Below the pieces are notes generated by a model that saw nothing but the letters and a program-made list of their open reading frames with translations, was not told the origin of the DNA and ran no database searches. Of a DNA stretch of 51,610 nt, positions 3,307 to 40,543 are shown one piece after another. The translations under genes were made by a program, and so were the position numbers. How positions within the stretch are numbered: position 1 is the first letter of the stretch; every line of letters starts with the position of its first letter. Source of the stretch: an uncultured Clostridia bacterium (GTDB taxonomy: Bacteria > Bacillota > Clostridia > Oscillospirales > Ruminococcaceae); the NCBI GenBank assembly GCA_945923775.1, contig CAMELR010000019.1:1-51610 (forward strand), read 5' to 3'.

Positions 3307-4611
3307 ATGAAAAAGTTCCTTTCGATTTTTACGGCGGCTTCAATGCTGCTCGCTATGACCGCATGCAGCTCCCCCGCTGACTCGTCGGCTTCCGACAGTT
3401 CCTCTGCGGCTGACAGCTCCGCTTCTGCGGCGCAGACTGCGGAAAGCTCCCAGCCCGGTCAGCAGGAAAGCTCCGAAGCAGGTGAAAGCTCTGCGGCTCC
3501 CACGGCGGAAGCAGACGACGCCCGCACCGACTACGAGAAGATGGTAGACCGCTCGCTGCTTTCCGTTGGCGACATGACCAGAATGGCCGATGTGTTCCAG
3601 AAGGCGCAGAACGGCGATGACATCACCGTCGCTTACATAGGCGGCTCCATAACCGAGGGCTACAACGCGGGAACCACAGAGTTCTACGCAAAGACCTGCA
3701 CCGACCTGCTTCAGGGCTACTTCCCGGATATCACTGTCACAGGCGTTAACGCAGGCATCAGCGGAACTCCCTCGCTGCTGGGCAACCTGCGCCTCGAGCG
3801 CGACGTGCTTTCCGCTGACCCGGACATCGTTTTCGTGGAATTCGCGGTAAACGACGGCCAGGAGGCTGACTACAAGAACGCATACGAGAGCCTTGTGCGC
3901 ACCCTGCTCACCCAGGAAAAGGACATCGCGGTAGTTCTGCTGTTCACCGTACTCGACAGCGGATATACCTGCCAGGAGCACATGTCGAAAATAGGCGCGA
4001 ACTATGACCTTCCGATGATAAGCGTACACGACAGCGTTTACGAGGAGATAGAAGCGGGAAGAATGACATGGCAGGATTACTCCAACGACCAGTCCCACCC
4101 GAACGCTTACGGTCACAAGTGCATCACCGACTTCGTTGACAACTACTATCAGAAGGTGCTCCCCGTTGTTTCCGAGAATGTCGGCGAGGTCAGCAAGGAG
4201 CTTCCCGACCCGGTATTCAGCGCTAAGTATATGAACATGCACTACATGGACAGCGCAACGATGGACGGCGTGGAGCTTGACGGCTTCGAGCAGTACGACA
4301 CCCACGGCAGCTTCCACAACGGCTGGATGTACCGCGGCACCGACGGCGGCTCGATGAAGTTCACCGTTGACTGCAGCGTGCTCGAGATGGTGTTCAAGGC
4401 AAACAACAGCGACAAGTATGGCACAGCCGATATCTATGTTGACGGCGAAAAGGTAAAGTCCGTGGTTTCTAACATGTCCGACGGCTGGAACAACCCCGTT
4501 ACCGCTTATCTCATCGACAACGATTCCTCTGCGGAGCATACCGTTGAGATACGCATGGAGGGCGGCGTTACACAGGCGTTCTTCGTGATGGCGTTCGGTT
4601 ACTGCGACTGA
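3307..4611 (+). CDS. SGNH/GDSL-family hydrolase lipoprotein (probable carbohydrate esterase)
   Basis: This 434-residue exported enzyme starts at ATG 3307, after the ribosome site AAGGAG. A signal peptide with lipobox LAMTAC (Cys about 18) predicts an outer-surface lipoprotein, followed by a Ser/Ala/Glu-rich linker to about residue 78. The SGNH blocks are visible: GGSITEG with nucleophile Ser114, FAVND with Asn182, and DQSHPN with Asp261 and His264. The family hydrolyses esters, commonly acetyl groups on xylan, mannan or other glycans. Residues about 300-434 look like a C-terminal beta-sandwich that may bind carbohydrate. It is a single-gene transcription unit between a consensus promoter and a terminator. 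The actual ester substrate is inferred only from the glycan-degrading context. Confidence 0.85.
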   Translation: MKKFLSIFTAASMLLAMTACSSPADSSASDSSSAADSSASAAQTAESSQPGQQESSEAGESSAAPTAEADDARTDYEKMVDRSLLSVGDMTRMADVFQKAQNGDDITVAYIGGSITEGYNAGTTEFYAKTCTDLLQGYFPDITVTGVNAGISGTPSLLGNLRLERDVLSADPDIVFVEFAVNDGQEADYKNAYESLVRTLLTQEKDIAVVLLFTVLDSGYTCQEHMSKIGANYDLPMISVHDSVYEEIEAGRMTWQDYSNDQSHPNAYGHKCITDFVDNYYQKVLPVVSENVGEVSKELPDPVFSAKYMNMHYMDSATMDGVELDGFEQYDTHGSFHNGWMYRGTDGGSMKFTVDCSVLEMVFKANNSDKYGTADIYVDGEKVKSVVSNMSDGWNNPVTAYLIDNDSSAEHTVEIRMEGGVTQAFFVMAFGYCD

Positions 4612-32009: not shown

Positions 32010-33533
32010 TCAATTGTTTTCACTTATTCCCCGAACCAGCCTTGCCATCGGGGTCGTATAGAAGTAATTCTCCCGGAACATCTCCTCCGGAGCGGCCTCG
32101 TTCAGTATCTCGCCGTTGAACAGCATTCCGCACACATCGGCGCAGTCTTCGGCAAGCTCGGTGTCGTGGGTCACCAGCAGAACCGCGCAGCCGTCCGCCG
32201 CAATCCCCCGCAGGAGCCCTGAAAGCTCCTGCTTTGAAGCGGCGTCCATGCCCTTGGTCGGCTCGTCCAGAAGCAGCAGCTCAGGTTTCCCCGCCAGCAG
32301 CTTCGCCAGAGCCAGCCGCTGGCACTCGCCGCCGGAAAGATCCAGCGGATCCCGCCCGGAAAGCTCCGCCAGCCCGAAGCGCTCCAGGTATTCCGCCGGA
32401 GCCTCCTGACCTACGGTATCCTGCGTGAACAGCATGCACGGATTCTGCGGAAGGTACGCCGGAACAAGCCCGCGCCGAAGCTTTACCCTGCCGGAAGTCT
32501 GCCGGAGCATTCCGCAGATCACCTTGAGCAGCGTGGATTTACCGCTGCCGTTGCCGCCGATGACCGCGTATATCTCCCCGGGGAATATCCGCAGCGACGC
32601 TCCCCGAAGCACTTCCGGAGCGTTCCTGCCCCAGCCGGCGCACAGCTCCTTAACGGAAACAAGCGGCTCCCCGGAGGGCGCATACTGCTTACCGGCTTTC
32701 TGCGCATGCTCCGTGAGATACTCACGGCAGACCGCGCTGCTCCGTCCCTCACGGACGGATACCGGGGAAGCTCCCCTGCCGCCCGCCGCCCGGAATACAC
32801 GCTGCGAAGCGGTGAGCGCCATCTCCATCGGGTGACCTTCGGGAAGGCTGTCCGCGAGAAGCGCCGGAGCGCAGTCCGCGATGATCCTTCCCCCGTCCAT
32901 TACAACTGCCCTGTCGGATATCGGAAGAAGCTCCTCAAGGCGGTGCTCGGCGGCTATGACGGTCACGCCAAAATCGCGGTTCAGCCTGCGCACGGCGTCG
33001 ATGAAGCCCTGTGCGGCTATCGGGTCGAGCTGAGACGTCGGCTCGTCCAGAAGCAGCAGCTCCGGGTGGAGCACCGCCGCCGAAGCCAGGCAGAGGAGCT
33101 GCTTCTGACCGCCGGAAAGCGTGTCGGTCGGCTTGTCGAAAAGCTCCTCAAGCCCGAAGTACCCCGCCATTTCCCCGACCCTGCGGCGTATCTCGCTCTG
33201 CTCCATTCCCACGCTCTCGCAGGAGAACGCCAGTTCGTGCCACACCTTGTCGGTGACGGTCTGAGCCTCCGGGTCCTGCATTACAAAGCCGATTTTCGCG
33301 GCGGTGTCACGATCCGGCTCGCTGGTCAGCTTTCTGCCGAGGAACCTCACGTCCCCGGAAAGCTCCCCGCGCGGGAAAAGCCCCGGCTTCATCAGCCGAA
33401 GCAGCGTCGATTTCCCGCAGCCTGAAAGTCCACACAGCGTGACGAACTCCCCGGGCTTCACCGAAAGGCTGACCCCGCGCAGAGCCGCAGAGCCGTCCGG
33501 GTAGCTGAATTTAAGGTCGTTTATCTGTATCAT
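32010..33533 (-). CDS. ecfA: ECF transporter double ATPase (EcfA-EcfA' fusion)
   Basis: This 507-residue protein holds two complete ABC ATPase domains. The first (about 1-235) has Walker A GLSGCGKST, signature LSGGQKQ and Walker B LLLLDEPTSQLDP. The second (about 285-495) has GGNGSGKST, LSGGECQ and LLLLDEPTKGMD. Start ATG 33533 overlaps the cytidine deaminase stop by ATGA, with GGTGGA just upstream. It powers vitamin or metabolite uptake together with EcfT. The fused arrangement is known, for example YkoD of the thiamine-related ECF system. No substrate-binding S component is encoded here. Confidence 0.9.
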   Translation of the reverse strand: MIQINDLKFSYPDGSAALRGVSLSVKPGEFVTLCGLSGCGKSTLLRLMKPGLFPRGELSGDVRFLGRKLTSEPDRDTAAKIGFVMQDPEAQTVTDKVWHELAFSCESVGMEQSEIRRRVGEMAGYFGLEELFDKPTDTLSGGQKQLLCLASAAVLHPELLLLDEPTSQLDPIAAQGFIDAVRRLNRDFGVTVIAAEHRLEELLPISDRAVVMDGGRIIADCAPALLADSLPEGHPMEMALTASQRVFRAAGGRGASPVSVREGRSSAVCREYLTEHAQKAGKQYAPSGEPLVSVKELCAGWGRNAPEVLRGASLRIFPGEIYAVIGGNGSGKSTLLKVICGMLRQTSGRVKLRRGLVPAYLPQNPCMLFTQDTVGQEAPAEYLERFGLAELSGRDPLDLSGGECQRLALAKLLAGKPELLLLDEPTKGMDAASKQELSGLLRGIAADGCAVLLVTHDTELAEDCADVCGMLFNGEILNEAAPEEMFRENYFYTTPMARLVRGISENN

Positions 33534-33922
33534 ATCCACCATTCCGGGGTAAGCTCCCCGAGCATCTTTACTTTGCCGGCACTGTAGTCCATCATTATTT
33601 CTATGTTCTTGTAGTCCTCCGGCATAAGCTGAGTCATCAGCTCCCGGCAGGAGCCGCAGGGAGCGCCGCTGTTTCCGTCCGGCATTATCGCTATGACCTT
33701 GCTTATCCGGTGTTCGCCGTTGGTTATCATATTGAATATCGCGTTTCGCTCGGCGCAGATTCCCAGTGTGCACGCCGTATCAATGCAGACTCCGGTGTAT
33801 ATCTTCCCGGAATCTGAAAGCACAGCCGCGGCAACTCCGCCGGCTTCGACGTATTCTGATATCTGGCGGCCGCCCTGGACTGCCCTTGCCGCGTTATAAA
33901 GTTCTTCCCATATCTTATACAT
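33530..33922 (-). CDS. cdd: Cytidine deaminase
   Basis: This 130-residue enzyme starts at ATG 33922 (site AAAGGAG), overlapping the ecfT end by 8 nt. The zinc site is complete: Cys56 with catalytic Glu58 in CAERN, and Cys89 and Cys92 in PCGSCRE. It converts cytidine or deoxycytidine to the uridine form. Its place between two ECF transporter genes suggests that the transporter carries a pyrimidine-related compound, or that the gene merely shares the promoter. Length is normal for the homotetrameric class. Confidence 0.93.
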   Translation of the reverse strand: MYKIWEELYNAARAVQGGRQISEYVEAGGVAAAVLSDSGKIYTGVCIDTACTLGICAERNAIFNMITNGEHRISKVIAIMPDGNSGAPCGSCRELMTQLMPEDYKNIEIMMDYSAGKVKMLGELTPEWWI

Positions 33923-34781
33923 TGTTATTCTCCTTTGAAAGAGCGCCGTAATTATTCCGGAAGTTCCAGGTCAAATTTCGGTATATTATCACTGCGGAGG
34001 GCAGCAGGCACAGCGCCGCAAACGCGCAGTACATCACGATATCCGCCGCGCTGCACGGAATATCCGAAAGCGCAGGGTAAAAGTAGAATTCCCCGGCGCC
34101 GGAAACTCTGAGGGCAAGCGAAATTCCGGCGGCAGCAATCACTGCCGTCATGGAAACCGCAGCGTATTCCGTGAAGCGGTAAATCGAGAAGCTGGTGCGC
34201 GGAGAAGTCCCGTAGCCCCGCGCTTTCATCGACAGCGCAGAATCCATCGCGCGTTCCGCAGAATATCCCACGGAAGCCGAAAACGCACGCAGCCGTCCGC
34301 GGAGGGTCTGCGCGTTCTGAACCGCGGCGAACTCCCGGGAGGTGCGAATAAACATCGGCAGGAACCGTATAGCGCAGGACAGCACCAGCCCGGCGGCGGG
34401 AAATATCCTCCCGAAGAGCCAGATGTACTTATCGCTTGTGACGAACCGCACAGCGCAGGCTCCCCACAGGCAGACCGCCGCCAGCATACCCCCGACGAAC
34501 GCCCCGTAGCAGAGCGCCTCCAGCGTGAACGCCCGGTCCCCGACGAAAAACAGCGCGGTCTCGCCGTTGTGGACGAACAGGAAGTTCGCCAGCGCCCCGG
34601 TGACCGCGACCGCTCCGAACCAGCCCGCCCCCTTCAGACCGCCGGAAAGCGCCGCAAGCATCACCGAACCGCCCAGCGAGATCAGTATAGTTACAGGCTC
34701 CCGGGCGAATGCAGTAAGCCCGAGCACCGCCAGGAGGTACAAAAAGCACACCGCCGGGTGCATTTTTTCGAGCGTCCTCAA
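33915..34781 (-). CDS. ecfT: ECF transporter transmembrane component (EcfT)
   Basis: This 288-residue membrane protein has about five to six hydrophobic segments. Typical EcfT coupling motifs are present: AVQNAQTLRGR and MDSALSMKARGYG. I chose TTG 34781, which overlaps the phosphatase stop as TTGA and has GGGAG 7 nt upstream; ATG 34763 is the alternative but its nearest site is 12 nt away. It links the ATPases to an S component. The S component must be encoded elsewhere, as in group II ECF systems where one module serves several. Confidence 0.85.
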   Translation of the reverse strand: MRTLEKMHPAVCFLYLLAVLGLTAFAREPVTILISLGGSVMLAALSGGLKGAGWFGAVAVTGALANFLFVHNGETALFFVGDRAFTLEALCYGAFVGGMLAAVCLWGACAVRFVTSDKYIWLFGRIFPAAGLVLSCAIRFLPMFIRTSREFAAVQNAQTLRGRLRAFSASVGYSAERAMDSALSMKARGYGTSPRTSFSIYRFTEYAAVSMTAVIAAAGISLALRVSGAGEFYFYPALSDIPCSAADIVMYCAFAALCLLPSAVIIYRNLTWNFRNNYGALSKENNNV

Positions 34782-35236
34782 AGCTTTTTCTCCCGGCTGA
34801 GCCAGTTTATAAGTCCCTCGCAGCCCTCGCATACGTCGCGGTAGGTGGTCTCGAACTCGCCGGTGTACCACGGGTCGGCGATGTCGCTCTCTGCCCTGCG
34901 GTCGGTGAAATCGAGCAGGCGGCGTATCTTCCCGGAATATTTCTCCCCGGCTATGCGGGTCATGTTGCGGATATTCGCGCCGTCCATGCCGACCAGCAGG
35001 TCGTATTCCTCCGCGTCGGAGCGGGTCATCTGCCGGGCGCGCTTAGCTGAGAAGTCTATCCCGAGCCTCCGCAGTATCGAGGCTGTGCCGTAATGTACGG
35101 GGTTTCCTATCTCCTCGGTGGAGGTCGCCGCGGTCACTCCGGTGATTCCGCGCTTTTTCAGCATGTCGAGAAATATGAATTCCGCCATCGGCGAACGGCA
35201 TATGTTGCCGTGGCAGGCGAATAGTATCTTGTACAT
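34778..35236 (-). CDS. Low-molecular-weight protein tyrosine phosphatase
   Basis: This 152-residue phosphatase starts at ATG 35236 (AAAGGA 9 nt upstream). The P-loop CHGNICRSP gives nucleophile Cys8 and Arg14; the general acid is in DPWYTG. The family dephosphorylates tyrosine (or arginine) residues of proteins in the cytoplasm. It is the first gene of the operon with ecfT, cdd and ecfA. Its promoter region holds the left 33-bp repeat of the AT-rich insert. Confidence 0.92.
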   Translation of the reverse strand: MYKILFACHGNICRSPMAEFIFLDMLKKRGITGVTAATSTEEIGNPVHYGTASILRRLGIDFSAKRARQMTRSDAEEYDLLVGMDGANIRNMTRIAGEKYSGKIRRLLDFTDRRAESDIADPWYTGEFETTYRDVCEGCEGLINWLSREKKL

Positions 35237-35407
35237 CTGTGTGGTTCCTTTCAGAAGGTTTTTTGTTGCGTTATTTTCCGCATTTTGCGTGCTGGCAGGT
35301 TCTACGGATTTCCGGTTAATTTCACAGGAACCCGGCAAATTGTGGAAAACTGCGGGCGCGTGCAGTAGTCAAATAATAGTAAAAAGTCAGGATTTGCAGA
35401 TGATTTT

Positions 35408-35440
35408 ATTATAGCACAGAATTGCATATTTGCATAGTAC
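35408..35440. repeat. Left 33-bp direct repeat bounding the AT-rich insert, with embedded promoter
   Basis: The repeat matches 38478-38510 at 30 of 33 positions: a shared 16-nt block (ATTATAGCACAGAATT), five variable positions and a shared 12-nt block (TTTGCATAGTAC). On the minus strand it contains TGC-TATAAT (35413-35408), an extended -10 that could serve the phosphatase operon about 170 nt downstream. The stretch 35237-35407 otherwise shows nothing recognisable. Confidence 0.75.
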
Positions 35441-35452
35441 CCAAATGAAAAC

Positions 35453-35471
35453 GCCCTGCAAAGCGCAGGGC
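35453..35471 (-). terminator. Terminator at the left edge of the insert
   Basis: GCCCTGC (35453-35459) pairs with GCAGGGC (35465-35471), and GTTTTC follows on the minus strand, downstream of the insert genes. Confidence 0.6.
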
Positions 35472-35487
35472 AAAATCTTATAGTGTG

Positions 35488-35622
35488 TTATCCCGTCACT
35501 CTAAACATCTCCTGCGTTTTCTCACCGCCGAGTTTGCCTATTTCCTTGCTGGCGTTCTCAATTTCTGCAATTCTGCCTAGCTCCTCCTGAACGTCATTAA
35601 AGCCCGATATGAGTATAAATAT
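35488..35622 (-). pseudogene. 3' coding remnant, unidentified
   Basis: A 44-codon open frame without a start codon ends in TAA at 35490-35488. The predicted peptide (FNDVQEELGRIAEIENASK, then EIGKLGGEKTQEMFRVTG) looks like a helical C-terminus, and in-frame stops precede it at 35623-35625. It may be the tail of a gene broken when the insert formed. I cannot name its family. Confidence 0.4.
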
Positions 35623-35653
35623 TCAAAGCTAGATACTATTATCTTCCTGAAAA

Positions 35654-36346
35654 TTACACATAAAATTCTTCGAACGTATCAAGGCACAGGCACGCTAGCC
35701 GCCCTTTCGGGTAGCACGCGCCGCAGTCTATGAAGATATTCCTGCCGTTCTTGTAGATTTCGGGCTTTCCCGAGAAATACGGCGTAGGAGTATGTCCCAT
35801 GACTGTAAATATGCTCTTGTCGTCAAAATACTGCTCCGATGGGTCGGGTCGGCAGGAAAGTAAGTCGTCGTCCGTGTATTCGCTTAATTTCTTTCCAGGC
35901 TTGTAATTTCCAAGCCCCGCGTGAACAAGCACAAAAGATTTATCTCCGACATCGACTGTTTCCAACAATGTGAATTCTTTCAGATAATCAATAACTTTTC
36001 CTCTCTGACGGGAGTCGAGTTTGCAAAAATCTGAAAGCGTTGTCTTTCCGGTGCCACTGATCCACATCTGAAGCGCCTGTGAAAGTTTGTCACCAAGCCC
36101 ACCGCCTTCCGCAAGTGCCTTATCTACTTTCGGAAGCAGTTCCAGAGCTATTAAGTCATGATTCCCCATAAGAGGGTACACATTTGGGCGGCTCATCATG
36201 TCAAGCAATACCTTCATAGGCGCTTCTCCACGATCCACTACATCGCCTATCACATAAAGGGCATCGCTTTCTTTAAAGTCAATTTTACGAAGAATTTCTG
36301 CATATTTATCGTACATTCCGTGAATATCGCTCATAACGTATGTCAC
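35654..36346 (-). CDS. PPP-type metallophosphoesterase (PrpE/ApaH-like)
   Basis: This 230-residue protein starts at GTG 36346 with AAGGAGG 9 nt upstream. All metal-binding motifs of the phosphoprotein phosphatase superfamily are visible: SDIHG (6-10), GDVVDRG (34-40), GNHD (61-64), VHAGLG and MGHTPT. Members hydrolyse phosphoserine/threonine, diadenosine tetraphosphate or RNA 5' caps. It is the last gene of the insert's operon, 21 nt after a second, related metallophosphoesterase. Base composition is lower in GC than the surrounding genes. Substrate is undetermined. Confidence 0.88.
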   Translation of the reverse strand: MTYVMSDIHGMYDKYAEILRKIDFKESDALYVIGDVVDRGEAPMKVLLDMMSRPNVYPLMGNHDLIALELLPKVDKALAEGGGLGDKLSQALQMWISGTGKTTLSDFCKLDSRQRGKVIDYLKEFTLLETVDVGDKSFVLVHAGLGNYKPGKKLSEYTDDDLLSCRPDPSEQYFDDKSIFTVMGHTPTPYFSGKPEIYKNGRNIFIDCGACYPKGRLACLCLDTFEEFYV

Positions 36347-36367
36347 AAGAAAATCCTCCTTCGTTTA

Positions 36368-37063
36368 TTATTTGTAAGGCTCAATCAGACGTTTTCCAGA
36401 GGCAGTAACCTGATAATATTTGTCATTTTCCGTATCAACCATAAGTACCGGAATAACTCCGCTCTCAATAACAGTTCCGTCTATGTAATAGTGAGATTCT
36501 CCATCAAAATAGATATCGTGAAATGACTTGTCGCCGGATATCACGGCAGTGCCGACATGACCTGCGACTACTTTCATATCAAGTCCCTCGATTTTGCCGG
36601 TTTCAGCGGGATATTTTGAGGTGAATATTTCTTCTGATGTTCCCCATTCCCACATATCACCCGCTTCTTCATCAATACCGGCGTGAACGAAAATCGTATT
36701 CCCCTCGACATGATATCGCGGAAGGGCAGAGAGCCAGCCTATGTACTTATCGTCATCGCTGTCGCTGTCATCTTCACACTCCTCTGCACGGGCATATACA
36801 GAATTGTTGTGTATGGTTGCCTCTCCGTTGAGCACCATTTCATCGTGATTTCCGAGCAGGGCGATGATCCTGTCTGTGCCGAATTGATTCTGAAGATCAA
36901 TAATTCTGTCAAGCACTTTCGCATTACCCCTGCCGCCGTGAACATAATCTCCCAAAAGGACAAGCTTTGCTCTGCCGTTGCTGATATCATCAAGAATGAG
37001 CGAGAGCGCATTTTCAAACTCGTCTATACACCCATGTATGTCTGCCATGCTGTAAATTTTCAC
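36368..37063 (-). CDS. Variant metallophosphoesterase
   Basis: This 231-residue protein starts at GTG 37063 (AGAGG 7 nt upstream); an ATG at 37111 lacks a ribosome site. It resembles its neighbour but with a variant second motif: ADIHG (7-11), GDYVHGG (38-44) where the family has GDxxDRG, GNHDEM (71-76) and FVHAGID. The Asp-to-His and Arg-to-Gly changes could alter phosphate binding or specificity. An acidic loop of about 14 residues (ECEDDSDSDDD) lies near residue 95. The two enzymes may act on different forms of one substrate or form a heteromer. Confidence 0.8.
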   Translation of the reverse strand: MKIYSMADIHGCIDEFENALSLILDDISNGRAKLVLLGDYVHGGRGNAKVLDRIIDLQNQFGTDRIIALLGNHDEMVLNGEATIHNNSVYARAEECEDDSDSDDDKYIGWLSALPRYHVEGNTIFVHAGIDEEAGDMWEWGTSEEIFTSKYPAETGKIEGLDMKVVAGHVGTAVISGDKSFHDIYFDGESHYYIDGTVIESGVIPVLMVDTENDKYYQVTASGKRLIEPYK

Positions 37064-37123
37064 TTCAAACCTCTTTCTTTGCAGCTTTCCAGGCGCTGAT
37101 ATCGTCTGCATTCTTTATAGCCT

Positions 37124-37618
37124 TTAGGTGATATTATCACAATGATTTTTCAGATATGGCATAACGGCTTCATGTCTTTTAACCCTCGGAATGCACCTGT
37201 CAGTACCATTTGCCTTCTGAAGAATAGGCTTTAATGTAGAAATATAGTGTGCCTCGGCTTCTTTTCTTGCTTTGTTTTTGACGATCCCTGTTTCAAGCAG
37301 AGAAACTGATATGCTGTTGTCCCCCAGCGTGGCGTCCAGACCGAAAAGCTCCGGAGAATGGCAAATATTACAGGCATGTACAACCAGACGCCGTACAGTT
37401 CTTATGCTCTCGCCTATGTACAGGGGCTTGCCGTTGAGGCTTATGCAGTACACCCCGAAGAGGTTATCTTCATAATGCTTGAGCATAAGGCCTTTTAATG
37501 TCGGGATATTCTCGCTTATCCAGGCCGAGCCTTCTTCGGACAGCGCCCAATCCTGCGCAGGTCCAAAGAGGTCTTTCAGATAACGCTGAAAAGCAGCATT
37601 GTTTGATTTTGTATTCAT
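37124..37618 (-). CDS. GIY-YIG domain protein (possible nuclease)
   Basis: This 164-residue protein starts at ATG 37618 (site AAAGGAG). A GIY-YIG fold is indicated by FGVYCIS (GVY 55-57), LYIGES (YIG 67-69), an arginine at 73 and a candidate metal-binding glutamate at 122 (EAEAHYISTLKP). The N-terminal 50 residues form helices of unknown role. GIY-YIG proteins include repair nucleases, homing endonucleases and restriction enzymes. The gene precedes two metallophosphoesterase genes in one AT-rich operon. A -10-like TATAAT lies at 37672-37667, with no good -35. Confidence 0.72.
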   Translation of the reverse strand: MNTKSNNAAFQRYLKDLFGPAQDWALSEEGSAWISENIPTLKGLMLKHYEDNLFGVYCISLNGKPLYIGESIRTVRRLVVHACNICHSPELFGLDATLGDNSISVSLLETGIVKNKARKEAEAHYISTLKPILQKANGTDRCIPRVKRHEAVMPYLKNHCDNIT

Positions 37619-37723
37619 GTTTGAATACTCCTTTGATAATGATTTCGGTTATTGTGCCGTTGAGTCCATTATACCTGAAATAGCCGCGAGCCGATAAACC
37701 TGGTAAGGTTTTGTTGAATCTAA

Positions 37724-38401
37724 CTATTTTGACTGTCTGTTTTTCATGTATTCTACACAACCCTTGATACTTAATTTATATAAAATGTTCTCATTATGGG
37801 CAGATATTTCTTCTCTTGAAACCTGCTCTGCCTCATATTGACTTTCACTTCTTTCAACGACTTTGAAAGCTTCGACTAGTCCCACATCAAGCAGCACTTT
37901 CAGCCCATTCACAATGCCGGACTTGGTGTAGTTTGCATTCAGAGTTTTTCCAAACTCATACAGCATGTCCAAACTAACAGTACGTCCCGGCAAATAATTA
38001 ACATAGTTATTTACCTTTAAAACACCTGTCATGTATTTTGCAAGCGGAGTATCCATAGTGTCTTTGGTAAGGCAAAACTTAAACTCATCGTCGCCGGAAA
38101 CAAGCATATTAAAAACTCTTTTGGCATTTGATGTGGAATTATCAAGGTTTACTGTATCACAAAGTGTATTAACATCTGTAAACAATGCAATATATGCTAT
38201 TTTTCTTTTATTCAAAGCGTTTATTCTTTCCTGACTAAGTTTGTTTTTTACAAGATGCCTCCAATTGTTTATGGCAGGAACTGATGCAGTACTGCCATGG
38301 GTTTCAACAGTGGTTTCATTCTGGATCGTTTCATTAGATCTGCTGTTCAAATATTTCAGTAACTCTTCGCAGTCATAGATATATGTATTTTTTTCACTCA
38401 T
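37724..38401 (-). CDS. Hypothetical protein, possible winged-helix regulator
   Basis: This 225-residue protein starts at ATG 38401 with GGAGG 6 nt upstream. The N-terminal half is polar and helix-rich with a Thr/Ser/Asn linker (residues about 20-45). The C-terminal part (TKSGIVNGLKVLLDVGLVE, then LYKLSIKGCVEYMKN) has the rhythm of a winged-helix DNA-binding domain. Codon use is strongly AT-biased: one sampled 60-nt row (38101-38160) has 19 G/C, while a row in galT (38701-38760) has 33. It could regulate the insert. No family is recognised. Confidence 0.65.
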   Translation of the reverse strand: MSEKNTYIYDCEELLKYLNSRSNETIQNETTVETHGSTASVPAINNWRHLVKNKLSQERINALNKRKIAYIALFTDVNTLCDTVNLDNSTSNAKRVFNMLVSGDDEFKFCLTKDTMDTPLAKYMTGVLKVNNYVNYLPGRTVSLDMLYEFGKTLNANYTKSGIVNGLKVLLDVGLVEAFKVVERSESQYEAEQVSREEISAHNENILYKLSIKGCVEYMKNRQSK

Positions 38402-38477
38402 AGTTTCCTCCACTTTAATAGGTAAGTTCAGTTTCACTTCGGCTGATGTATAATCAATAAACGCTTTACGTTTATTG

Positions 38478-38510
38478 ATTATAGCACAGAATTTTAAATT
38501 TGCATAGTAC
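38478..38510. repeat. Right 33-bp direct repeat bounding the AT-rich insert
   Basis: Same orientation as 35408-35440, 30 of 33 identical. On the minus strand it carries TGC-TATAAT (38483-38478), suited to driving the gene that starts at 38401. Confidence 0.75.
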
Positions 38511-38545
38511 AATAGCGTAAACAGGAACTTTTTTCAGAAACGATA

Positions 38546-38574
38546 TTGACTTGTGAGCCGATGTGGAATATAAT
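38546..38574 (+). promoter_or_regulatory. Promoter of galT
   Basis: TTGACT (38546-38551), a 17-nt spacer and TATAAT (38569-38574), about 40 nt before ATG 38621. Confidence 0.8.
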
Positions 38575-38620
38575 ATTATCAGGTGCTAAGTGCACATTAT
38601 TACAAAGTGAGGAATCAACA

Positions 38621-40111
38621 ATGATCTACGAAAGTATTCAGAAGCTCATTAAATATGCAGAAAGAAACGGACTCATAACCGCAGACGACGAGTATGTAGC
38701 GCGCAATCAGCTCATGGAAATACTCCAGCTCAGCGACTGGGAGGAAAACAACGCCGACGACAGGAGCGCGTCAGTGGAGGCTCTGCTGGAGCCGATCATT
38801 TCCTACGCCGTCGAAAAGGGACTGATCCAGGACACCGCAGTTTACAGAGATCTTTTCGATACAAGGATCATGGGAGTGTTCACGCCGTTCCCGCACGAGG
38901 TCAACGCGGAGTTCCAGCGCCGCATGGCGGTAAGCCCGAAGGAGGCTACCGACTGGTACTACGATTTCAGCAAGAAGCTGAACTACGTCCGCGCTGAGCG
39001 TATCGCCAGGGACATGAAGTGGACGTACGATTCCAAATACGGCGTGCTCGACATCACTATCAACCGCTCCAAGCCCGAGAAGGATCCCCGGGATATCGCC
39101 GCCGCCAAGACTCAGAAGGCTTCCAAGTACCCCAAGTGCCAGCTCTGCGCTGAGAATATGGGCTTCGCAGGCCATCTGACCCACCCGGCGCGCCAGAACC
39201 TCCGCCCCGTAAGGGTCGAGATGAACGGCTCTGAGTGGTTCCTCCAGTATTCCCCCTACGGATATTACAACGAACACTGCATAGTATTCAACAAGAACCA
39301 CGTCCCCATGGTGATCGACGACAGCGTTTTCGACAAGCTGTTTGATTTTATCGAGCAGTTCCCGCACTATATGCTGGGCTCCAACGCCGACCTTCCGATC
39401 GTCGGCGGTTCTATACTCACCCACGAGCACTTCCAGGGCGGACACTACACCTTCCCGATGGCGAGGGCTTCCGTTGAAAAGCCGTTCCTGCTGAGCAATC
39501 ACCCTGATGTCAGCGCTGGCATCGTCAAGTGGCCGATGTCCGTTATCAGGCTGTCGTCCTATAACCGTGCTTCCCTTTCCGCAGCGTGCGCAGAGGTGCT
39601 TAAAAAGTGGAGAGCCTACACCGACGAGCAGGCCGGTATATTCGCACAGACCGACGGAGTTCCCCACAACACGATAACTCCTATCGCGAGAATGAACGGC
39701 TCCCAGTATGAATGCGACCTCGTTCTCCGCAACAACATAACCTCCGAGGACCGCCCGCTCGGTATTTTTCACCCGGCTCCTGCGCTCCACCACATCAAGA
39801 AGGAGAACATCGGCCTCATCGAGGTAATGGGTCTGGCGGTGCTTCCCGCAAGACTTGCGACCGAGCTTTCCATACTCAGGGACGCTATGCTCTCCGGCGC
39901 GGATATCGCGGCTGACGAGCGTATCGCCTCCCACGCCGACTGGGCGAATGAAGTCCTCGCGGCGCACCCCGAATTCAACACTGACAACGCAATGGACATC
40001 ATTCACGCCGAGGTCGGAAAGGTATTCGGCCAGGTGCTTGAGGACGCTGGTGTGTTCAAGCGCACCGAAAGCGGCAAGGAAGCGTTCAGGCGCTTCGTTT
40101 CCACGCTCTGA
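38621..40111 (+). CDS. galT: UDP-glucose-hexose-1-phosphate uridylyltransferase (type 2)
   Basis: This 496-residue enzyme starts at ATG 38621 (GAGG 8 nt upstream). It belongs to the long Firmicutes GalT branch, as shown by YPKCQLCAENMGF, the substrate-binding GSNADLPIVGGSILTHEHF and the active-site HEHFQGGHYTF. It exchanges the UMP group between UDP-glucose and galactose 1-phosphate in the Leloir pathway. galK and galE are not adjacent. Its own promoter and terminator indicate a single-gene unit. Galactose released from galactomannan could be one source, matching the mannan genes further right. Confidence 0.93.
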   Translation: MIYESIQKLIKYAERNGLITADDEYVARNQLMEILQLSDWEENNADDRSASVEALLEPIISYAVEKGLIQDTAVYRDLFDTRIMGVFTPFPHEVNAEFQRRMAVSPKEATDWYYDFSKKLNYVRAERIARDMKWTYDSKYGVLDITINRSKPEKDPRDIAAAKTQKASKYPKCQLCAENMGFAGHLTHPARQNLRPVRVEMNGSEWFLQYSPYGYYNEHCIVFNKNHVPMVIDDSVFDKLFDFIEQFPHYMLGSNADLPIVGGSILTHEHFQGGHYTFPMARASVEKPFLLSNHPDVSAGIVKWPMSVIRLSSYNRASLSAACAEVLKKWRAYTDEQAGIFAQTDGVPHNTITPIARMNGSQYECDLVLRNNITSEDRPLGIFHPAPALHHIKKENIGLIEVMGLAVLPARLATELSILRDAMLSGADIAADERIASHADWANEVLAAHPEFNTDNAMDIIHAEVGKVFGQVLEDAGVFKRTESGKEAFRRFVSTL

Positions 40112-40124
40112 TAAATATTGCAGG

Positions 40125-40158
40125 ACTCCCCCCGGCGCCGGCTGAGGGGAGTTTTCTT
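40125..40158 (+). terminator. Terminator of galT
   Basis: ACTCCCC (40125-40131) pairs with GGGGAGT (40146-40152), with an inner CCGGCGCCGG palindrome and a TTTTCTT tail. Confidence 0.8.
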
Positions 40159-40161
40159 ATT

Positions 40162-40353
40162 TCAGCGCTTTTCCCCCGGCTCAGGCGGGAGAAATCCGTA
40201 CAGCTCCGCGTAGCTGTCGAGTTCCTCGCCGTCCTCGGGCATTGAGGGTATAAGCCCGGTGCAGTCCCCGGCGCTGCCGGAGTTCATAAGCGGGTCCTGA
40301 AGCTGCTGCGCCTGCTCCGGGTCGGTCTCGGGAGGATAGGGATAGTTTTCCAC
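40162..40353 (-). CDS. Small acidic proline-rich protein, unknown function
   Basis: The product has 63 residues, starting at GTG 40353 with AAAGGAAG 7-8 nt upstream. It is rich in Pro, Glu and Asp (YPYPPETDPEQAQQLQDP, MPEDGEELDSYAELYGF) with little predicted order. It lies convergent to galT and divergent from secA. No family is recognised; the good ribosome site and neighbour-like codon use support a gene, but confidence is moderate. Confidence 0.5.
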   Translation of the reverse strand: MENYPYPPETDPEQAQQLQDPLMNSGSAGDCTGLIPSMPEDGEELDSYAELYGFLPPEPGEKR

Positions 40354-40455
40354 ATTAACACTTCCTTTCGCTGATATTATCTGCTTTTCTGAACGAAAAA
40401 TTAACGGAAAATGCTGCAAAGGACATCTTCAGCATGTTTTCTTTAAAGTTTTCAG

Positions 40456-40484
40456 TTGACAAATCCGCAGGGATATTGTATAAT
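40456..40484 (+). promoter_or_regulatory. Promoter of secA
   Basis: TTGACA (40456-40461), a 17-nt spacer and TATAAT (40479-40484). The leader to ATG 40544 is about 52 nt. Confidence 0.88.
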
Positions 40485-40543
40485 ATAAGATGAGTTTTTA
40501 TATTCAGCAATGAACTTTTTTACAGAAGGGAATATACAATAAA

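Follow-up and report, generated by a model that had tools for sequence, protein, structure and literature searches.

A probable relic of an integrative element at the 5′ end of a low-molecular-weight phosphatase gene in an uncultured Clostridia bacterium

Integrative elements that rely on tyrosine integrases are known from the 5′ ends of housekeeping genes, namely ftsK, rbgA and ebfC, and Tn916 is known for its low target specificity, as described in passages of PMC4701971. Here, we analysed a stretch of 51,610 nucleotides from an uncultured Clostridia bacterium of the Ruminococcaceae (contig CAMELR010000019.1, positions 1 to 51,610; hereafter the window), in which DNA bracketed by a direct repeat lies between galT and the gene of a low-molecular-weight protein tyrosine phosphatase (LMWP). 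This region probably represents the decayed remains of an integrative element from a family with Tn916-type integrases that lands at the LMWP 5′ end. As in the elements described in PMC4701971, members of this family would have their tyrosine integrase gene at the end that adjoins the target and would cross over within the 5′ end of a conserved gene. In contrast to those elements, the target is LMWP, which these passages do not mention (the word ‘phosphatase’ occurs 0 times), the break lies inside active-site codons, and the window copy is a relic. Unlike Tn916, the relatives analysed here occupy a single gene. Literature searches among open-licence papers returned no report of LMWP as an integration target.

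The LMWP gene has matches in 32 of the 42 other genomes of the genus that were compared. A search for its start in all 43 genomes revealed, apart from the gene itself, seven fragments in five genomes including that of the window (G000); an extra two-mismatch match in G001 was left out of this number. All seven fragments break directly after CTGCCACGGCA, in codon 11, within one base on either side. Genome G054 contains both halves of such a locus: contig C35 carries the LMWP start followed by a sequence with inverted arm-like repeats and a methylase-specificity fusion gene, and contig C38 carries the integrase, the right end and LMWP, together with a Fic-like gene 93% identical to a G017 gene with a Pfam Fic match. 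The G054 integrase comprises the Pfam domains Integrase_DNA (tn916) and Phage_integrase, and it is 40.7% identical to an integrase in Streptococcus phage IPP61, which we take to be that of Tn916. In G057, the type I restriction genes HsdM, HsdS and HsdR directly follow the LMWP fragment of contig C22 (locus L260, 518-7585).

Relatives of this integrase are encoded by 39 phage-like loci of IMG/VR. An LMWP fragment (≤3 mismatches) was found downstream of the integrase in 14 of them, which corresponds to 14 of the 29 loci with at least 500 bp on that side, and none was found upstream (199,669 bases) or on the other strand; 10 of the 25 loci without the fragment have less than 500 bp downstream. 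Among 13 viral loci inspected, L291, L299, L302 and L307 run into a complete LMWP. In contigs such as L273, L293, L294, L297-L299, L302, L305 and L307, the integrase is followed by the LMWP start, either broken at the same place or continuing into LMWP; these contigs are phage-like, whereas the window holds a small cargo island. L297 and L298 are identical to L299 over 400/400 right-end bases, yet continue into other sequence; integrated forms would be expected to differ from free or tandem ones in this way. Because the break recurs at the same place in five genomes and in 14 of the 39 phage-like loci, we regard the LMWP start as an attachment site, and the LMWP 5′ end thus appears to be a recurrent landing site of related mobile elements.

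In the window itself, the right end together with the LMWP core (35205-35388) comprises arms, a ribosome site and the LMWP start, the make-up expected if an element had supplied its target gene with a new 5′ end. The leader in front of LMWP is 71-77% identical to those of G004, G003 and G050 and to an LMWP-free stub in G011:C62 (the stub 74%), with looser alignments to other right ends; the match to the stub means that this leader sequence exists without LMWP. The distance from the promoter to the CxGN motif of LMWP is 192-217 nt in the window, G004, G003 and G050, each with an arm pair, versus 50-71 nt in five loci, none with an arm pair. Paired arm-type repeats spaced 11 nt apart were found only in these four among nine promoter-bearing loci. 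Altogether, 7 of 31 loci have arm pairs (the four and G054, G044 and G011; that of G017 fell below the cut-off), which simple shuffles produced in at most 1 of 200 cases per locus. The paired arm repeats presumably resemble those of Tn916. Judged by its sequence, most of the leader between the LMWP-proximal repeat copy (copy 1) and the LMWP start codon is element DNA. The bases directly 3′ of the promoter in G003 and G050 resemble, by eye, the leaders of arm-free loci, which argues that copy 1 would be the native promoter joined to the element right end; the same stretch in the window and G004 is uninformative.

The repeat proved to be real. Its copies share 32 of 36 positions in the same orientation (30 of 33 in the frame of the original prediction), the best 36-nt direct match in 34500-39500, and since 20 Markov-1 resamples of the region reached only 23-26, a chance origin was rejected. 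Each copy reads, on the minus strand, GTAC-TATGCA-17 nt-TATAAT with TGn preceding the −10 box and is, from sequence, a predicted sigma-A-type promoter; a plain consensus promoter scan did not return the copies, presumably owing to the poor −35 match of TATGCA. Of 31 LMWP loci of the genus (30 from the genus search plus G011, those of G009 and G058 being left out), 9 have the pattern GTACTATGCAAA-N12-TGN-TATAAT (≤3 mismatches) at most 300 bp upstream of the LMWP motif, which identifies the repeat as an LMWP promoter, in line with the earlier proposal of a duplicated promoter. The exact matches listed, at least seven, comprise five in front of LMWP, another at the broken LMWP start of contig C47 in the window genome, and copy 2. 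Both copies are closer to each other (30/33) than to eight relatives (≤26/33), which suggests recent common ancestry. The 33-bp repeats are a duplicated promoter and rather unlikely crossover sites.

In the 2.97-Mb genome, the two-copy pattern (four spacer positions free, ≤3 mismatches) matches these two sites only, and a looser promoter pattern matches 8 sites, of which three are exact (both copies and C47) and five have 3 mismatches. The sequence is therefore not a common promoter at many genes of this genome; such a distribution would have spoken against insertion. Similar promoters precede a TIR-like gene in G003, a macrodomain-like gene in G018 and an indolepyruvate-oxidoreductase-like gene in G044 (tentative names; promoter positions L314 1797-1829, L315 460-492 and L317 3952-3984), so that this promoter type is not exclusive to LMWP. 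No exact match to the pattern was found in the viral contigs. At copy 2, a perfect inverted repeat overlaps the −10 box and the start region and may represent an operator or a 5′ mRNA hairpin.

The original prediction stated that no integrase is encoded and overlooked a 3′ remnant of such a gene. Its open frame (35491-35610) ends in GEKTQEMFRVTG and shows 51% identity over 37 residues (37.7 bits) to the integrase C-termini of L272 and L273, compared to at most 27.3 bits in 300 shuffles, and 36-37% identity to the G054 integrase. In an integrase profile search, it was the best of 1086 window segments (E=0.009). Comparison of the 40 residues with phage and plasmid records yielded one match at E=9 among the former and none among the latter. 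A shorter similar trace of 14 residues, ending KTREMFRVTG, lies about 30 bp upstream of the LMWP promoter in G003; another integrase-like trace was found on G015:C33, the LMWP of this genome being located on C1. In this family, an integrase gene would be expected beside the right end; the window holds only the 40-codon remnant, which is separated from the right end by the promoter. The terminator-like hairpin between the remnant and copy 1 is weak on its own, as 3 such sites occur in the region versus 3.1 expected.

The DNA between the repeats differs from its surroundings with a G+C content of 42.4%, compared to 54.5% for the window, 56.5% for galT and 61.0% for 32010-35236; only 11 of 972 sliding 3034-bp windows, the insert itself included, are as low or lower. 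All four main reading frames lie on the minus strand (Table 1). The low G+C content and the common gene direction had both been described before, and the view that the insert was acquired gains from the integrase remnant inside it and from two genes, those of the orphan and the GIY-YIG-like protein, that have no match in the 42 other genomes. Relatives of these two proteins were absent from viral contigs (close-relative search) and phage records; the GIY-YIG-like protein has a 41.5% identical relative on a Sporosarcina plasmid, while the orphan has none in plasmids. The orphan gave no Pfam, NCBIfam or PADLOC match and weak PHROG matches only. Relatives of both metallophosphatases (63% and 67%) occur in one cluster in G015. 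No known defence protein was detected among the cargo, PADLOC giving one weak match in the four proteins (E=0.014); a role in defence is possible but unsupported. General protein-family scans revealed no conjugation family among the element genes of the window, and no Rfam family reached the gathering score in 34000-40500.

Table 1. Features of the LMWP-galT region and LMWP-start fragments located apart from the gene.
Feature	Position	Strand	Evidence or remarks
LMWP gene, target	34778..35236	-	PF01451 E=6.5e-32; 153 codons including stop
Putative attachment core, LMWP codons 7-11 (GCCTGCCACGGCAA; CHGN of active-site loop)	35205..35218	-	fragments elsewhere break within 1-2 bases
Predicted right end of the element, with arm repeats, ribosome site and LMWP start	35219..35388	-	alignment to relatives; upstream limit approximate
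Arm pair TTTTACTAT-n2-TTTGACTAC, 11-nt register	35364..35384	-	
Copy 1 of the direct repeat, LMWP promoter (GTAC-TATGCA-17 nt-TATAAT, −10 box preceded by TGn)	35405..35440	-	
Hairpin resembling an intrinsic terminator, located between the remnant and copy 1	35451..35472	-	z -4.0
3′ remnant of Tn916-type integrase gene, 40 codons and stop	35488..35610	-	similarity to integrase C-termini
Metallophosphatase, NinI-like	35654..36346	-	PF00149 E=1.8e-15; phrog_246 E=2e-39
Second metallophosphatase (NinI-like), start codon uncertain	36368..37111	-	PF00149 E=7.4e-13; phrog_246 E=1.3e-26
Small GIY-YIG-like protein	37124..37618	-	PF01541 E=2.4e-4, 21.8 bits, below 22.6 cut-off
Orphan protein of 225 amino acids, first gene after copy 2	37724..38401	-	
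Perfect inverted repeat (15 nt) at copy 2, overlapping −10 box and start region	38449..38483	-	z -9.2
Repeat copy 2, second LMWP promoter copy, upstream of cargo	38475..38510	-	30/33 to copy 1
galT, divergent flank	38621..40111	+	reading frame and Pfam scan
LMWP-start fragments apart from the gene	G000:C47, G011:C62, G011:C146, G044:C151, G054:C35, G057:C18, G057:C22		

As the LMWP start acts as attachment site in relatives and phage-like contigs, we propose that the window holds a relic of the same family. Its members would cross over at the break in LMWP codon 11, and the right end would supply its own version of LMWP codons 1-10 together with arm repeats and a ribosome site, by which integration would restore LMWP. 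One member may have entered at the LMWP start and then decayed, losing the left end and most of the integrase gene; what remains would be the four cargo genes between two promoter copies, copy 1 before LMWP and copy 2 before the cargo. We infer that the integrase remnant and the cargo belong to one element and that copy 2 drives the cargo genes, and the promoter duplication would stem from integration followed by deletion or recombination. At least two events are needed to explain the order of remnant, promoter and arms, such as a solo right end of older date, common to G000, G004, G003 and G050, and a later element.

Several observations weigh against this proposal. A single clean integration is excluded, because the remnant lies upstream and the arms lie downstream of the promoter. 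The window contains neither a second core (≤1 mismatch) nor a second arm pair, a left end, which would combine inverted arms with the native LMWP start, was not found in it, and the best match of the copy 2 flank to the left ends compared, 21 nt with E=0.066, is unconvincing. The integrase remnant is short and does not reach E≤0.05 in a larger six-frame set. The second phosphatase is also present in 9 of the 42 other genomes, some of the matches being weak, and relatives of the G054 integrase are absent around six second-phosphatase loci (4-8.5 kb searched at each). Among the viral loci with at least 500 bp downstream of the integrase, 15 of 29 lack the LMWP fragment, and among named phages with such integrases, the 3 checked of 23 records have no fragment within 4 kb. 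An empty site was not found either. From a single scan of a public genome collection with galT, 80 loci were kept, and in none of the 23 of these or the 15 LMWP regions compared with the genes of the window does galT adjoin LMWP. The two genes lie on different contigs in all 8 other genomes in which both were found; the genomes compared are mostly fragmented and a second strain of the species was not found.

The original prediction suggested that the element may move by recombination between the repeats, which the present analysis does not support in that form. Framed as attachment sites, with copy 2 as attL and copy 1 as attR, the 33-36-bp repeats would have been recombined at the LMWP promoter by an integrase of this Tn916-type family or a variant, and the right end in the leader would be an older, separate scar. 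The sharp repeat edges fit this explanation, as does the integrase 3′ end, which lies 47 bp from copy 1 at the usual place of an integrase gene; the G003 trace has a similar position, and fewer steps are needed for the bracket and the gene order. Direct repeats of 12-54 bp also flank streptococcal site-specific tyrosine-integrase elements, according to passages of PMC4701971. Still, the breaks in relatives and phage-like contigs lie in LMWP codon 11, roughly 200 nt downstream of the site that corresponds to copy 1, and not in the promoter, and the leader is mostly element-like; moreover, the integrase of L273, whose tail is 51% similar to the remnant, precedes a codon-11 break, the second promoter-like copy in G003 precedes the unrelated TIR-like gene, and no further element between two promoter copies was found. 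We therefore regard the repeats as rather unlikely attachment sites. It is likewise unlikely that an integrase lineage which otherwise cuts in codon 11 recombined at the LMWP promoter here and thereby duplicated it, with a copy each for host gene and cargo; if true, the attachment site would double as a promoter donor.

Alternatively, the cargo could have arrived by ordinary recombination or could reflect an old neighbourhood, copy 2 being an independently evolved promoter of the same type. Promoters of this type do precede the three unrelated genes in relatives named above, and at the 10 spacer bases that are not fixed, the copies share only 7. The closeness of the copies to each other and the distribution of the exact matches, all but copy 2 located at intact or broken LMWP starts among those listed, speak against such an origin, which we consider quite improbable. 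Insertion of an insertion sequence or transposon with a long target duplication would account for direct repeats at both ends, and yet no terminal inverted repeats were present among the pairs listed, protein-family scans of the cargo gave no transposase match, and 36 bp exceeds the target duplications usual in such elements; this origin appears extremely improbable. Relic formation by the codon-11 family thus remains the probable explanation.

Further observations concern single contigs. In L256 (G044:C151, about 3385-3860), two LMWP-start fragments follow one another, separated by an integrase tail, which suggests tandem elements. The LMWP-start fragment of the window genome (L200, G000:C47) lies within 691 bp (91-781) that are 98.4% identical to G021:C81:1071-1758, compared to about 74% for the LMWP regions of both genomes; besides a small gene of membrane-protein type, this piece holds the LMWP promoter and an LMWP start that breaks off at the attachment core, and it was possibly transferred recently. 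Contamination of C47 from a G021-like genome is disfavoured by another part of the contig that is only 82% identical to G021. Positions 1-90 of L200 are repeated in contigs C49, C45, C17, C9, C8, C48 and C83 of the same genome, four contigs carrying the repeat at their first bases, and are possibly an insertion-sequence end. Another galT-like copy, split into three pieces of which one contains three internal stop codons, lies at G019:C34:15450-16710.

The LMWP 5′ end appears to be a landing site common to genomic islands of this genus and phage-like contigs, and each integration would replace the leader and about 10 LMWP codons. The replaced codons presumably include that of the catalytic cysteine, to judge from the motif. 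With restriction genes adjoining two of the LMWP fragments, the type I genes of G057 and the methylase-specificity fusion of G054, the site may be a place to seek new mobile cargo, and it offers a test case for how a host gene can function despite a repeatedly swapped start.

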